Shown here piece by piece: positions 55,975 to 61,854 of a stretch of 64,000 nt of DNA. Both the position numbers and the translations under genes were made by a program. The stretch is taken from contig NZ_CM001484.1 in the NCBI RefSeq assembly GCF_000243395.2, positions 3,342,524 through 3,406,523 on the forward strand, read 5' to 3'. The stretch comes from Saccharomonospora glauca K62 (lineage in GTDB: Bacteria > Actinomycetota > Actinomycetes > Mycobacteriales > Pseudonocardiaceae). The notes below the pieces were generated by a model. It had not been told where the DNA came from and did no database searches. It saw only the letters and a program-made list of their open reading frames with translations. Numbering within the stretch: the stretch's first letter is position 1; each line of letters starts with the position of its first letter.

Positions 55975-56307
55975 CCGTTTCGTCTCCCCACCGCGAGCGC
56001 GGGTTCGTTCTCGGTTCCGGCACGGTTGGCGGCCGGTCACCGTCAGTCTCGACCCGGTTCGCGGGGGCGAGGAGGCGTCCACGACGAACGGTGTTCGCAC
56101 TGCGCCGAACGAGTGGTGGCCGATCGGCTCCCGGATACGTCCCACAGTTCAGGGGGACTCATCACGAAACCGTGGCCTCCACGACCACCGGCGTTCGCGT
56201 TAGTCCGTTCCGGGTAACGTCCCACGATCAGCTCCACACCTGGTAGATCAAAACTAACGTGGGCGCCGACGTCGCAATAAGTAACCGATTCGGCACAGGT
56301 GACCAGT
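55975..56307. other. Divergent promoter region, no gene seen
   Basis: A 330-bp space between the SDR and MFS genes. It holds a CGTTAGT (56198-56204) and ACTAACG (56253-56259) inverted pair but no ORF I can support. Confidence 0.4.
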
Positions 56308-56319
56308 TGGTAGCTACCA
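56308..56319. promoter_or_regulatory. 12-bp palindrome upstream of the MFS gene
   Basis: TGGTAGCTACCA is fully symmetric and ends 14 bp before the ATG at 56334, where a repressor could block transcription or translation start. Confidence 0.45.
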
Positions 56320-56333
56320 CGACAGCGGCGCGG

Positions 56334-57521
56334 ATGAGTGACGCAGTCCGCAACCGCGAATTCCGGGCCATATGGATCGCGGAGGCGCAGTCGATCCTCG
56401 GCGATCACCTGACCACGGTGGCACTGTCCATCGTCGTGTACGGCCGTACGGGCTCGCCCCTCTGGGCCGCCACGGTGTACGCGCTCACCTTCCTCCCGGC
56501 GCTCGCGGGTGGTCTGGGACTCTCCCAACTCGCCGACCGATTCCCCCGCAAGACGGTCCTCGTCGTCTCGGCCGTCGTCCAGGCCGTGTTGGTGGGGGCC
56601 ATGGCCGTGCCGGGAATGCCACTGGCACCGCTGTGCGTCCTCGTCGTCCTCGCCCGACTCGCGGGCGCCCCGGCCAACGCCGCGCAGAACGCCCTGACCC
56701 GCGAGGTGTTCACCGACGACGAGCTGTACCTGCGCAGCCAGGACCTCAGGGGCATCACGAGCAACATCGCCATGCTCATCGGGCTCGCCGGGGGCGGGTT
56801 CCTGGTCACGTCGTTCGGAGCGTCGTGGGCGCTGGCGATCGACGCCCTGACCTTCCTCGTCGCGGCGCTGCTCGTGCAGCTCTGGGTCCGGCAACGCCCC
56901 GCCGCCGGCAACCCGGACGACGGGTGGTTCACCGCGGTGCGTTGGGTGTGGGGACAACGCCGACTGCGGGTGTTGCTCGCGTTGTCCTGGTTGGTGGGAC
57001 TCGCGGTGATCCCCGAGGGGCTCGCCGCTCCGCTGGCCGACCAGATCGGCGCCCCCGAACAAGCCGTGGGCTGGTTGCTGGCCGCCGACCCGGTGGGCTT
57101 CATCCTCGGCACGTTCGTCTTGTCGCGGTTCGTCTCCGCGGAGAACCGCAAGCGTGTGATGGGAGTGCTGGCCACGCTCGCGGCCGCGATCCTCATCGGT
57201 TTCGCGGCGACCCCGAACCTGCCCTTCGCGCTGTTGTTGCTGATGCTCGCGGGAGCAGCGGGCTCCTACATCATCACCGTCGGGGCCACGTTCATCACGT
57301 GGGTGCCCAACGACAAACGAGGTGGCGCGGGAGGCGTCTACCGCACCGGTCTGCGGGTCGCGCAGGGTATCGGGGTCGCTCTGGGCGGCGTCGTCGCGGA
57401 CCTCGTGGGGTCCGCGACGACCGCGATCGCACTCGCGGGAGCCGCCGGAGTCGTTCTCACGATCCCGGTCGCGCTCTCCTGGGCGCGTGTGCGGAAGGCC
57501 GACTCATCCGAGAAGGACTGA
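56334..57521 (+). CDS. MFS transporter (EntS-like exporter type)
   Basis: A 395-residue major facilitator with about 11-12 helices. The N-terminal half starts NREFRAIWIAEAQSILGDHLTTVALSIVVY and has the loop 2-3 motif SQLADRFPRKTVLVVS; the central loop includes RQRPAAGNPDDGW. The layout fits the MFS_3/EntS-like group, which exports siderophores or drugs. ATG at 56334 gives the usual start; GTG at 56259 is possible. Substrate unknown. Confidence 0.86.
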   Translation: MSDAVRNREFRAIWIAEAQSILGDHLTTVALSIVVYGRTGSPLWAATVYALTFLPALAGGLGLSQLADRFPRKTVLVVSAVVQAVLVGAMAVPGMPLAPLCVLVVLARLAGAPANAAQNALTREVFTDDELYLRSQDLRGITSNIAMLIGLAGGGFLVTSFGASWALAIDALTFLVAALLVQLWVRQRPAAGNPDDGWFTAVRWVWGQRRLRVLLALSWLVGLAVIPEGLAAPLADQIGAPEQAVGWLLAADPVGFILGTFVLSRFVSAENRKRVMGVLATLAAAILIGFAATPNLPFALLLLMLAGAAGSYIITVGATFITWVPNDKRGGAGGVYRTGLRVAQGIGVALGGVVADLVGSATTAIALAGAAGVVLTIPVALSWARVRKADSSEKD

Positions 57522-57720
57522 GCACACGGAAAGCGAACGTGACAGCCGGAAGCGTCACGACGACCACCTGATTGTGCTGGGGTCCTCACGGCGTGAAGCC
57601 GGCGAAAAAGGTTACTTAACAAGGAGAAACGACAGCCTTCGAAAACGATCTCGCCATCGCGGACAGAACGGAATGCCAGATGCACGGACCATGACTTGCC
57701 GGTGAACGGCACTCGGGCGT

Positions 57721-57741
57721 TCACACCCCGTCACGGTTCAC
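57721..57741 (-). CDS. Micro-ORF D (MNRDGV)
   Basis: Seven codons, GTG AAC CGT GAC GGG GTG TGA, preceded by GGAGG four bases upstream. It has the same length as three related micro-ORFs upstream and keeps the RD pair. Its stop overlaps a further GTG on the same strand (GTGA), whose reading frame I do not regard as a proven gene. Confidence 0.4.
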   Translation of the reverse strand: MNRDGV

Positions 57742-57775
57742 GTTCCTCCGTCGACCGACGACGAGCCGCCGGCTC

Positions 57776-57796
57776 TCAGAAGTCGCGGTCAGTCAT
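57776..57796 (-). CDS. Micro-ORF C (MTDRDF)
   Basis: Seven codons, ATG ACT GAC CGC GAC TTC TGA, with GGAGG nine bases before the ATG. It encodes almost the same peptide as copies A and B. Differences between copies fall at the start codon, the Ser/Thr codon and the wobble base of Arg, the pattern expected of selection on the peptide. Confidence 0.6.
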   Translation of the reverse strand: MTDRDF

Positions 57797-57859
57797 GGTG
57801 AACACACCTCCTCGTCGGTGGAACCAATCCCGAGGACGGAACGTCGACAAGAATGAGAA

Positions 57860-57880
57860 TCAGAAGTCACGGTCGGACAC
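57860..57880 (-). CDS. Micro-ORF B (MSDRDF)
   Basis: Seven codons, GTG TCC GAC CGT GAC TTC TGA, preceded by GGGGAGG five bases before the GTG. Second of the tandem copies; surrounding bases are not conserved except for the ribosome-binding site. Confidence 0.6.
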   Translation of the reverse strand: MSDRDF

Positions 57881-57926
57881 GAGAGCCTCCCCAGGGTGTC
57901 TAGTCGTGCGATGTGTCAGTTCTAGG

Positions 57927-57947
57927 TCAGAAGTCGCGGTCAGACAA
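57927..57947 (-). CDS. Micro-ORF A (MSDRDF)
   Basis: Seven codons, TTG TCT GAC CGC GAC TTC TGA, preceded by GGAGG at nine bases. First of the tandem copies on the minus strand. Upstream, TAGTGT near 58027 could be a -10 box. The region 57522-58190 holds no other gene that I can support. Confidence 0.55.
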   Translation of the reverse strand: MSDRDF

Positions 57948-58070
57948 GAGAGAACACCTCCACTCGCGTCCGAGTTCGTGTGGACGTCGAAAACGGGTAC
58001 AGAACAACACATCCCCACCACCGACACTACAGTCCGGTGGCCTCGCCTACACGAATTTCCGGTGCAGTGC

Positions 58071-58086
58071 GATGATACCGATCATC
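58071..58086. promoter_or_regulatory. Dyad between micro-ORFs and diguanylate cyclase gene
   Basis: GATGAT (58071-58076) and ATCATC (58081-58086) flank ACCG. The minus strand reads TATCAT across the left arm, a possible -10 box. Confidence 0.35.
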
Positions 58087-58190: not shown

Positions 58191-59576
58191 GTGCCGCTCA
58201 TTCCACAGGATCGGCCGTCGCCAGAAATCGTTACGTTCGACTCGGGCCGAAAGGCCGTGAACCGGCCACCCCTGCCTCGGCAACCCCTCGGCGACCGCGA
58301 GGGCACGGGCGACCGCCGCGCGAAGTTGTTGCCGCGCAACTGGGCGCTGTGGACTAGACCACGACGCTTCGTCGTGTTCCTGTTGACCATGGAGGCGTTG
58401 TCGGTCGCCGGTTTCGCGGTGGCGTTCGTCCACTCACCGGTGCCCGGCGGGGAGGACTGGCTCAGATTCGTCATCCTCGGGCTGGGCGCCACCGCGCACA
58501 TCCAGCTCACGCGCCGCCAGGAGGAGCGACGACGCAACCGCACGAAGACCGTGCTCATCGACCTCACGGCGGTGTGGGTCTTCCCCGCGACGCTGGTCCT
58601 GCCCGCCACGCTCGCGGTCCTGTTGGTCGCGCTCATCCGGCTCCAACGCTGGTTCACCGCCCGCCGTCCCACGCACAACTTCGTGTACTCGTCCGTCGCC
58701 CACGGACTCGCGGCCGCCCTGGCCAACCTCAGCTACCGGGCGATGTCGCCACAGGACTGGAGCACACTGACCGCCACGGGATCGCTTCGCGAGTTCGGAC
58801 TCGTGCTCGCCACGGCGGCGGTGTACGAGGCGGTGCAGATCGTCTACGTGGGCGGCATCCTGGCCCTGGGCTCGCCCAACCCGACCGTCCGCACCGTCCT
58901 CGGCAGCAAGGCCGACAACCTCCTGGAGGCCATCACCACCGGACTCGGGGCCGTCACCGCCGTGCTGCTGGTCACCATGCCTCCGGCGGTGGCGATCATG
59001 GCCGTGGTCACCGTCGTCTTCAACCGGCTCGCGGAGATCGACCAGTTGCAGAACGCGGTGGTGACCGACCCCAAGACCGGACTGCTCAACATGCGCGGGT
59101 GGACGGAGTCCGCCGACCGCGCGCTCAACCGCGTGCGACGCGCGGGGAGCACGCTGTCCGTCCTGATGGTGGACCTGGACCATTTCAAGTGGGTCAACGA
59201 CACCTACGGACACCCGGCCGGCGACGACGTGCTGGCGGCGGTGGCGAGCGCGTTATCCAGCGTGACCAGGCCCGCCGACGTCGTGGGCCGCTTCGGCGGC
59301 GAGGAGTTCCTCCTGCTGCTGCCCGACGCCGACACCTCGGCCGCGGAGCTCGCGGCCGAACGAATCCGCACGACCATCGCGGGCCTGCGGATCTCCACCA
59401 CCGACAAACGAGGGGCCAGGGCCACCATCAGCGGCCGCACGGCCTCCATCGGGGTCGCCGTGTTCCCCCGTCACGCCGACGACCTCGACGGGCTGCTCCA
59501 GGCCGCCGACACTGCCGTGTACGAGGCGAAGGAAGCGGGCCGCAACCGCGTCCGCTTCGCGCCGGTCCCGACGTGA
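58191..59576 (+). CDS. Membrane-bound diguanylate cyclase (GGDEF)
   Basis: A 461-residue protein making cyclic-di-GMP. About six hydrophobic helices (residues 60-290, from FVVFLLTMEALSVAGFAVAF to VTAVLLVTMPPAVAIMAVVTVVF) form a membrane sensor resembling MASE-type modules. The GGDEF domain runs from about 300 with LMVDLDHFKWVNDTYGHPAGDDVL, and the active site GGEEF lies at residues 369-373. The inhibitory RxxD (RPAD) stands five residues before it, so product inhibition is expected. GTG has AGAGGA upstream. Confidence 0.93.
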   Translation: MPLIPQDRPSPEIVTFDSGRKAVNRPPLPRQPLGDREGTGDRRAKLLPRNWALWTRPRRFVVFLLTMEALSVAGFAVAFVHSPVPGGEDWLRFVILGLGATAHIQLTRRQEERRRNRTKTVLIDLTAVWVFPATLVLPATLAVLLVALIRLQRWFTARRPTHNFVYSSVAHGLAAALANLSYRAMSPQDWSTLTATGSLREFGLVLATAAVYEAVQIVYVGGILALGSPNPTVRTVLGSKADNLLEAITTGLGAVTAVLLVTMPPAVAIMAVVTVVFNRLAEIDQLQNAVVTDPKTGLLNMRGWTESADRALNRVRRAGSTLSVLMVDLDHFKWVNDTYGHPAGDDVLAAVASALSSVTRPADVVGRFGGEEFLLLLPDADTSAAELAAERIRTTIAGLRISTTDKRGARATISGRTASIGVAVFPRHADDLDGLLQAADTAVYEAKEAGRNRVRFAPVPT

Positions 59577-59676
59577 CATGTGACGCCCGATGAACACACC
59601 GTGGTCGGGACCAACGAGGAAGCCGTTTTTCGGGGTTCCGCTGACACGGCGACCCTCGTGCTGCCACCCTGTGGAC

Positions 59677-61854
59677 ATGCCCGTCCGCCAAACCCCGAAC
59701 GCGCGTCGACGGACACCGGGCGGTCTCACTCGTCTCCTGCTGCTGGTCCTCCTGGTAGGGGGCTTCGCGTTCGTGGCCTCCCGACCGGAAGCCACCTCGC
59801 CCCCCGCGGGCGACGAGCCCGTCGACGAGAGCGTGGCCGACGCCGAACGCGCCGTCGAGGCGTTGCTCGACCCCGAACGCTCCGCTCAGGCGCTGGCCAT
59901 GCTGCCCGCCGACTTCAAGGCCGTGACCGGAGTCGAGGTCGCCACGCAACGCGCGCTCGACGGCACGGTGAGGGCGATACACGTCGGCGGCGGGTGTTCC
60001 GCACCGTGGGGTGACGACAGCACCCGGTGGGACTTCGGGACGCCCTGTCGCTCCCACGATCTCGGCTACGACCTGCTGCGCTACGCGGAGAAGAAGGGCA
60101 GCCCCCTCGGGACCGACCTCAGGGAGGCGCTCGACGACCGGCTGTCCGAGGACATGTACGCCACCTGCGACGTCAACCCGAGGGGCACCCCCGAGCTGTG
60201 CCGCAGCGTCGCCGGGCTCTACACGGCGGGGCTCGTGGTGAACTCCTGGCACCAGAGGTGGGGACCTCCGGTGAACGAGCCCCTGCCACCACTGCTGGCC
60301 GGGGCGGTGGTCATCGGGGTCCTGCTCTGGCACCGATGGCGCGACCGGCTGGGGGGCCTCTCCTCGTCACCGAGCCCGAAGCCTCGACCGCGCCGGGACG
60401 CGCGCATCGTGCCCGCCACACCGTGGACGTTGCTCGGCGTCGGCGGGGTGGGACTGCTCATCCTCGGCGAATCGACGGTGGCGCTGGCTCGCTGGGCCGG
60501 GCTGGCCACGGAGTGGCTGTGGCCTCTCACCTGGTTGACCCAGACGGCGGTGGTGTTCTTCCTCGCCGCGGGATATAGCAACGCCGTGGCGTGGGAGGCC
60601 AGCTCCCGCTCCGGCGGGGTGCGGGCCTACCTGGCGCATCGGGGCAGCTGGCTGTTGCGGTTCGCACTCGTGTTCGCCGTCGTGGCCTTCGCCACCCCCC
60701 TCGCCCTGGAGCTGCTGCGCGTACCACCGACGACCGCCGAGGGGATCATGCGAGTGGCGCTGCACCCGCTGTGGTTGATCGGTTTGTACCTGCTCACGGT
60801 CATCCTCACGCCACTGATGCAGGCACTGCACCGACGCGCGCCGCGTGCGGTGCCGCTGGGCCTGGCTCTCGCGCTCGCGGGCGCGGAATGGGCCACCACA
60901 CTCACCACATCGTCGTGGCCCCACCACCTGGGCACGATGACCCTCGCGCTGCTGGCGCAACAGGCCGCCTTCGCCCACCGGGACGGCTTCACCCCCACCC
61001 GGCGTCAGTTCCTGCTCGCGGCCGGGGCCGGACTCGCAGCGTTGGCGATCGGCGCCACCACGGGGGCCCTCCCACTCGTGCTGGGAGTCCCCGACGCCCC
61101 CTCGACGCTGGCGGGGCCCACGACCGCCGTGCTGCTGATCGGCGTGGTTCAGGTCTCGGTGCTCGGCCTGCTCCGGGACCGCCTCGGCCGCCTGGTGTGC
61201 CGACCACCGGTCCTGCGCGCGGCGGGACTGGCCTCACGCGCGCCGATGAGTCTCTACCTGCTCTTCCTCGCCGCGGTGATGCTGTTGGTGAGCGCCGTGT
61301 ACCTGCCGAGGCGCCTCGGCTCCGAGTTCGACGTGCTGGCCGTGCAATCCCGCACCCTGCTCGCCACCGCTCTCCTGGTGGCCCCCGCGGCGTTCGTTTT
61401 CGTCCGGATCGAACGCCACGTGTGGCATCGACCACTTCCCTCTCCGGTGTGGCGTCCCACACGGAGCGGACTGGACCGGTGGCTCTCCTACGGAGCGACG
61501 GTCGCGGGCTTCGGTTTCGCCGTCCTCGGCGTGTTCGGGTTCGCGTTGACGACGCTGAACGCCACGCCGGAAGCGCTGTCGGGAGTGCTGCTCGACCCGG
61601 TGCAGAGTCTGGTGAAACTGCTGCTGGGGATGTCGCTGTTGCACAGCGTACGCAGCGGAACCACCGGCAACCCCGGAACTTGGCTGCTCATGGCGGCGGC
61701 CTGTGTCCCGCCCCTACTGTCGGTGACGGCGACGCCGTTGCCCGACTCCGTCGGCATGGTGGTGCACGTGACGGCCTGCCTGGCCGCCGTCGCCGTGGCG
61801 ATCATGACGACGGTGAGGGCCCTGGTCTCCCCCGCGCGGGGGTGGCGAACCTGA
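59677..61854 (+). CDS. Phospholipase A2 domain fused to a multipass acyltransferase-like membrane protein
   Basis: A 725-residue protein. A signal or anchor helix (LTRLLLLVLLVGGFAFVA) precedes a bacterial secreted phospholipase A2-type domain at about residues 80-195, with the catalytic pair His127-Asp128 in TPCRSHDLGYDLLRYA and further Cys in YATCDV and PELCRS. A helix at about 205 follows. The remaining 480 residues contain some ten hydrophobic helices with GYSNAVAWEASSRS and YLAHRGSWLLRFA, resembling acyltransferase-3 family membrane proteins. It may remodel envelope lipids outside the cell. No Shine-Dalgarno; a weak CACCCT lies six bases before the ATG. Confidence 0.75.
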   Translation: MPVRQTPNARRRTPGGLTRLLLLVLLVGGFAFVASRPEATSPPAGDEPVDESVADAERAVEALLDPERSAQALAMLPADFKAVTGVEVATQRALDGTVRAIHVGGGCSAPWGDDSTRWDFGTPCRSHDLGYDLLRYAEKKGSPLGTDLREALDDRLSEDMYATCDVNPRGTPELCRSVAGLYTAGLVVNSWHQRWGPPVNEPLPPLLAGAVVIGVLLWHRWRDRLGGLSSSPSPKPRPRRDARIVPATPWTLLGVGGVGLLILGESTVALARWAGLATEWLWPLTWLTQTAVVFFLAAGYSNAVAWEASSRSGGVRAYLAHRGSWLLRFALVFAVVAFATPLALELLRVPPTTAEGIMRVALHPLWLIGLYLLTVILTPLMQALHRRAPRAVPLGLALALAGAEWATTLTTSSWPHHLGTMTLALLAQQAAFAHRDGFTPTRRQFLLAAGAGLAALAIGATTGALPLVLGVPDAPSTLAGPTTAVLLIGVVQVSVLGLLRDRLGRLVCRPPVLRAAGLASRAPMSLYLLFLAAVMLLVSAVYLPRRLGSEFDVLAVQSRTLLATALLVAPAAFVFVRIERHVWHRPLPSPVWRPTRSGLDRWLSYGATVAGFGFAVLGVFGFALTTLNATPEALSGVLLDPVQSLVKLLLGMSLLHSVRSGTTGNPGTWLLMAAACVPPLLSVTATPLPDSVGMVVHVTACLAAVAVAIMTTVRALVSPARGWRT

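Follow-up and report, generated by a model that had tools for sequence, protein, structure and literature searches.

Tandem micro-open reading frames beside a diguanylate cyclase gene in Saccharomonospora glauca suggest a peptide signalling system in actinobacteria

A 64,000-nucleotide stretch of the Saccharomonospora glauca K62 genome (contig NZ_CM001484.1, positions 3,342,524 to 3,406,523; hereafter the window) contains a tandem array of 21-nt micro-open reading frames (micro-ORFs) encoding M(S/T)DRDF, each with its own Shine-Dalgarno (SD) sequence. The array lies between a convergent gene for a transporter of the major facilitator superfamily (MFS) and a divergent gene for a membrane-anchored GGDEF diguanylate cyclase. 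Recurrent rows of differing peptides across actinobacteria suggest an undescribed peptide signalling system. The best explanation, to which we give slightly better than even chances, is that the micro-ORFs produce a peptide that leaves the cell through the MFS protein and is perceived by the membrane GGDEF cyclase, altering cyclic di-GMP (c-di-GMP). The principal features of the window are as follows.

57927–57947, minus strand: micro-ORF unit 1, TTG TCT GAC CGC GAC TTC TGA, encoding (M)SDRDF
57957–57961, minus strand: GGAGG of unit 1, ending 9 nt 5ʹ of the start
57860–57880, minus strand: micro-ORF unit 2, GTG TCC GAC CGT GAC TTC TGA, encoding (M)SDRDF
57886–57890, minus strand: GGAGG of unit 2, ending 5 nt 5ʹ of the start
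57776–57796, minus strand: micro-ORF unit 3, ATG ACT GAC CGC GAC TTC TGA, encoding MTDRDF
57807–57811, minus strand: GGAGG of unit 3, ending 10 nt 5ʹ of the start
57721–57741, minus strand: fourth ORF, GTG AAC CGT GAC GGG GTG TGA, encoding MNRDGV, judged not to be a unit
56259–57521, plus strand: convergent MFS transporter gene, weakly EntS-like, a probable exporter by comparison
58191–59576, plus strand: gene for the membrane-anchored GGDEF diguanylate cyclase, GGEEF intact, a probable receptor by comparison

The three units were noticed in a preliminary description made from the window's sequence alone, and they are confirmed. With up to three mismatches allowed, the unit pattern matches three times in the window, a number that none of 100 shuffled sequences reached (mean 0.17), and in the 4.56-Mb genome the exact pattern occurs only as these three units. 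A first unit with a TTG start and a similar SD context recurs at other loci of the genus. The same description counted the fourth ORF as a member of the array, and held that drift of the peptide or loss of the SD in homologous regions would speak against translation. The GGAGG of this ORF ends only 3 nt 5ʹ of its start; in sister genomes the site reads MRRDRS (G332) or MHREGP (G331), each with a degraded SD, or has lost its start (G338). Because its peptide drifts and its SD or start is lost, we reject the fourth ORF as a conserved unit.

Comparison of units indicates that selection acts on the encoded peptide, and hence that the units are translated. We analysed 462 units from 130 arrays, found by peptide similarity. 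From position 3 onward, codon pairs, whose counts are not independent, show 681 synonymous and 32 non-synonymous differences, whereas random single-base changes would be 18% synonymous. Since the detector requires similar peptides it is biased against non-synonymous changes, yet 262 of these passed at position 2 (168 synonymous). Start codons (ATG 215, GTG 207, TTG 40) and stop codons (TGA 453, TAG 5, TAA 4) vary, and serine codons switch between TCN and AGY in eight arrays. Identity between units from codon 3 is 96–99% at codon positions 1 and 2 and 61–88% at the wobble position; it is also raised at the SD, and falls to 21–39% just outside the SD and ORF. Arginine is encoded by CGC or CGT in 550 of 555 unit codons, whereas CGG accounts for 35% in the GGDEF ORFs; such a preference would be expected where translation is strong. 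Repeated units were found on the divergent strand in 130 of 213 regions, and in none of the same 213 regions on the opposite strand or of 1065 Markov-shuffled regions. The preliminary description had read the array as translated peptides, with conservation confined to the SD and codons, and these results bear it out: between units the changes are mostly synonymous, and identity is raised at the SD. A DNA-binding repeat is rejected, because only the SD and codons are common to the units, and these carry changes of wobble base, start, stop and serine codon box.

Peptide cores are multiplied in two ways, as separate micro-ORFs or in frame within one precursor. RDTNW occurs twice per ORF in genome G914, REIRWT twice in G777, GSEWH four times in G387 and PTDW six times in G389; the longer ORFs of G202 and G385 terminate in DRDF or DRDL. 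The four-core GSEWH ORF (locus L237) is upstream of a GGDEF paralog, and the six-core PTDW ORF (L335), which looks like a multi-core precursor, is divergent from another. Copies that differ almost only synonymously, that are dissimilar outside the SD and ORF, and that have multi-core counterparts in relatives together argue that the peptide is the product.

The peptide varies between genomes and is nearly uniform inside each one. Beside MFS homologs the peptides are MxDRDF, MxGRDF, MxNRDF, MSSRDW, MxARDF, MxGRDY, MxNRDL, MRDREA and MSDRAW, and copy numbers are high for MSDREA (11) and MSSRDF (10). Paralogous GGDEF genes, including those of other families, carry their own peptides, such as MRDKIW, MRNREW, MRGNSWD and MRDNTWT, in up to 13 copies. 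Over 72 peptides, the last residue may be F, W, A, L, T, D, S, N, G, C, Y or E. Two loci have an extra first copy upstream of the first detected unit, MSGRNF (L108) and MSGCDF (L036), while their other units retain DRDF; these are probably decaying copies. At L264 and L267 (family f31), MGDYFR with a weak SD occupies an identical position upstream of the cyclase, and may be another peptide type. The single units MRDVHWG and MRDTTWI at L260 and L265 (family f46) adjoin a gene that by eye resembles SpoU methyltransferases, with no MFS gene in view.

The strict pattern of the window's units matches 26 of 390 genomes of the window's family, from 8 of 46 genera; an extra match in G180 (L011), with an AGC serine codon, has different neighbours. 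When GGAGG was also required, 12 stretches of a named-genome collection matched, 11 of them from Pseudonocardiaceae genera and one from an Actinomycetes metagenome-assembled genome. An order-wide search matched 18 of 397 genomes. Four of these lie outside the window's family; each has a single match, which in three of them ends in TGG rather than a stop.

Which genes accompany the arrays? We used the MFS protein as an anchor, with matches in 140 of 386 genomes at E ≤ 1e-125 and five additional genomes (G121, G185, G060, G382 and G070; the last four with weaker anchors of 46–54% identity), and read the regions beyond the MFS stop codon for units. Of these 145 loci, that of G107 is cut by a contig end. 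A divergent GGDEF gene is present in 129 of 144 (128 in view, plus G089 from the membrane-domain search), and all 129 have between one and eleven units, those of G060 and G382 being MRDKIW taken from the unfiltered list. The remaining 15 (twelve of genus g4, and G070, G143 and G157) have neither a GGDEF gene nor a unit beyond the MFS stop; in G006, G007, G070 and G143, units lie beside a GGDEF gene elsewhere. The preliminary description had proposed a search of actinobacterial genomes and a comparison of synteny, and the outcome is clear: the arrays recur and are linked to a divergent GGDEF gene. Its remark that no maturase is obvious beside the array agrees with the Pfam matches of the window neighbours and with the reading of relatives' ORFs, but it missed both the wider peptide family and the way in which the array tracks the GGDEF gene, often together with the convergent MFS gene.

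The link to the cyclase holds when the cyclase itself is the starting point. Of 80 genomes of the family, 60 have a match to its membrane domain. Among 40 GGDEF-anchored loci, which we chose, which are mostly high-scoring and in which units were called by reading, 35 have a recognizable unit, leader form or multi-core ORF, many with a single unit; their peptides include MRDKIW, MRNREW, MRNRDM, MxVRDW (9 copies), M(x)SRDW (13 copies) and MRNKNW. Across a sample of the class, the domain is present in 28 of 246 genomes, the window's own among them, and 25 of 29 class loci have a unit by the same kind of reading. In family f34, for which we took 30 of 31 places from 18 of 22 genomes (these overlap the 29 class loci), a clear M-R-x-x-x-W unit is nearby in 28 of 30, with two or more units in 26 and up to 13. 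A sample of 149 genomes of the phylum gave no match to the membrane domain besides the window's own. As a control, we considered all GGDEF genes of four genomes, taking 30 of 42 places. Where the membrane domain is present, 7 of 11 places have repeated units and an eighth has a multi-core ORF; where it is absent, none of 19 has either (for 17 of these the start of the frame can be seen, and at least 350 nt upstream are visible in 13).

Different cassettes of one genome use different peptides. This is the case for G060, G382, G070, G072, G207, G386, G202, G850 and G868, and also for G922, G832, G823, G884, G803, G876, G725 and G389; these are genomes in which two or more cassettes were read, not a full census. 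In a quick tree of 107 of 168 labelled loci, the cyclases that accompany MRDKIW in G060, G382 and G070 group together as a clade, and those that accompany MRNRxx in these three genomes fall in a different one, from which it appears that the peptide follows the cyclase and not the genome.

The cyclase of the window matches PF00990 (5.5e-45), and its N-terminal domain is polytopic, with no Pfam match. An intact GG(D/E)EF motif is present in 113 of 220 loci (with several loci per gene); every complete ORF longer than 400 aa has it, and the remaining loci are cut short. The MFS gene is convergent in 20 of 29 class loci, 19 of 40 GGDEF-anchored loci and 24 of 30 f34 loci. In relatives, the genes that recur directly beside the array are those for the GGDEF and MFS proteins, as judged by reading twelve named loci of about 8 kb and the class loci.

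We propose that the array is a gene for peptide production: a short transcript with tandem SDs and six-codon ORFs would yield many copies of fM-x-D-R-D-F, and elsewhere other peptides of 6–7 residues with a charged or polar core, usually with F or W near the end. The length of 6–7 codons may favour reiterative translation, which has been measured in vitro for the 7-codon mccA mRNA (PMC6495379). The convergent MFS protein would export the peptide, whole or trimmed, and the divergent membrane GGDEF protein would sense it through its polytopic N-terminal domain. Sensing would alter the c-di-GMP output of the cyclase, providing an autocrine or density signal. The comparison shows peptide selection, linkage to the GGDEF family, frequent linkage to MFS genes and distinct peptides for paralogous cassettes; we infer export, binding and a c-di-GMP response.

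Several observations weigh against this proposal. Beyond the MFS stop, genus g4 lacks both the GGDEF gene and the array, although in G006 and G007 both occur elsewhere near an MFS gene. Four of the 40 GGDEF-anchored loci have no unit (one lies beside a run of N) and one is unclear; units are absent or unclear in 4 of 29 class loci; one f34 locus in 30 has no unit and another has a distant unit only; and the loci L329, L338 and L342 have none. No MFS gene is in view in 21 of 40, 9 of 29 and 6 of 30 of these loci, respectively. The terminal residue may be G, C or A. The MRNRxx cyclases as a whole do not form one clade in the quick tree, and because linked genes are inherited together, agreement between peptide and cyclase clade is partly descent. 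A model of the membrane domain resembles the six-helix fold of ECF S-components, within the chance range of helical models. Lastly, the proposal passes through steps that we infer, namely export, an extracellular peptide, binding and a c-di-GMP change.

An alternative is that the core peptide is modified by an enzyme encoded elsewhere, as for ribosomally synthesized and post-translationally modified peptides, with the MFS protein exporting the product and the GGDEF protein regulating or sensing it. We consider this unlikely, though it is the strongest rival. An aromatic residue is frequent, and relatives have multi-core and leader-plus-core ORFs. Biarylitides, which are made from a five-residue precursor with a P450, offer a precedent. 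Their precursors come from 18-bp genes, likewise minimal and missed by annotation (PMC13417212). However, the terminal residue varies widely here, the arrays are multi-copy with another motif, and no P450 or other maturase was recognized beside the cassette by Pfam among window neighbours or by reading the ORFs of relatives, unlinked enzymes not being searched.

The peptide could also act without export, binding the GGDEF protein or a different intracellular protein, in which case cyclase activity would be set by how strongly the array is expressed. The absence of a secretion signal from a six-residue peptide, the GGDEF linkage and the units at loci with no MFS gene in view are consistent with this scenario, but a convergent MFS gene, encoding a protein 30–53% identical to that of the window, is linked in many loci, and the N-terminal domain of the cyclase is polytopic. 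We regard it as quite improbable.

Still less credible is a peptide antibiotic of the microcin C kind. The precursor of microcin C requires a C-terminal Asn, whereas among the 72 peptides N ends MRDNNWN and few others. MRDNNWN is like MRTGNAN in length and at both ends, and microcin C likewise combines a 7-codon precursor gene, in the length range of reiterative translation, with an exporter, the pump encoded by mccC (PMC6495379). The arrays differ in being tandem and linked to a diguanylate cyclase, and no MccB-type (ThiF-like) gene was recognized by Pfam among window neighbours or by reading the twelve named loci and the class loci, the rest of the genomes not being searched.

A translation or RNA device (stalling ORFs, a ribosome trap or a structured RNA), whose peptide would have no role outside the ribosome, has a similarly slim chance. 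The SDs are strong, units are in tandem with a median spacing of 73 nt, and most of the SD of the window's unit 3 falls within an inverted repeat that surrounds this unit. However, the next gene downstream of the array runs on the opposite strand, only the SD and codons are common to units, paralogous cassettes differ in peptide, and several cores may lie within one ORF, a repetition that a translation-control device would not need. A structured RNA was rejected, as nine array loci gave no Rfam match at the gathering threshold; the single match of the window stretch was far below it. The serial leader peptides entertained in the preliminary description are not supported, because the next gene, for the MFS protein, lies on the opposite strand; an attenuation leader is rejected on the convergent MFS and divergent GGDEF genes of the window and named loci.

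Among pheromone systems, Agr and RRNPP pair a peptide gene with an AgrC-type kinase or a TPR regulator. They too link a short peptide to a sensor candidate, and the peptide differs between species and paralogs. Here, by contrast, the usual form has no long precursor and the linked sensor candidate is a GGDEF enzyme. Some receptors of the 5TMR/S-component fold are fused to GGDEF domains, and the available part of their description mentions no peptide-gene partner (PMC11109136); the array cyclase differs in that its N-terminal domain has no Pfam match. Sequence searches of the PDB gave one meaningless match (E 0.9) for the membrane domain and none at 0.001 for the MFS protein. By these tests the arrays fall outside microcin C, the biarylitides, attenuator leaders and both pheromone families, and in function they would come closest to an exported peptide that signals to its own sensor. 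A literature search by peptide string and concept, covering one collection, found no description of such arrays; the peptide-string matches concern other subjects, by title.

Two further elements flank the array.

58072–58079, minus strand: GGTATCAT box, a possible -10 element of a separate promoter for the array, suggested by conservation
57538–57559, minus strand: terminator-like stem 3ʹ of the array, close to where the MFS gene ends, by consensus match only

The GGTATCAT box is common upstream of arrays in many genera, and in 20 of 29 loci picked by hand GGTAYCAT precedes the first detected unit by 72–186 nt. It is possibly a promoter element or an operator; a generic σ70 promoter scan detected no promoter. 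Consensus matching alone gives three terminator-like stems in the region against 0.7 expected. By Pfam, the window neighbours are AMP-binding, short-chain dehydrogenase, MFS, GGDEF, phospholipase A2-like and LytR-CpsA-Psr proteins. A 754-aa ORF (59590–61854, plus strand) matches prokaryotic phospholipase A2 and beyond that match has a long hydrophobic stretch.

Genes of 21–24 bp are missed by ordinary gene callers. We see about an even chance that these arrays represent an actinobacterial family of autocrine peptide-to-c-di-GMP systems, with micro-ORFs that are possibly translated reiteratively, MFS export, a dedicated cyclase and paralogous cassettes that serve as private channels. If so, the repeated, cassette-specific peptides are ready-made tests of specificity, and the micro-peptides would supply candidate ligands for c-di-GMP sensors. 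They would also give actinobacteria, several of which belong to antibiotic-producing genera, a new means of signalling to themselves or from cell to cell.
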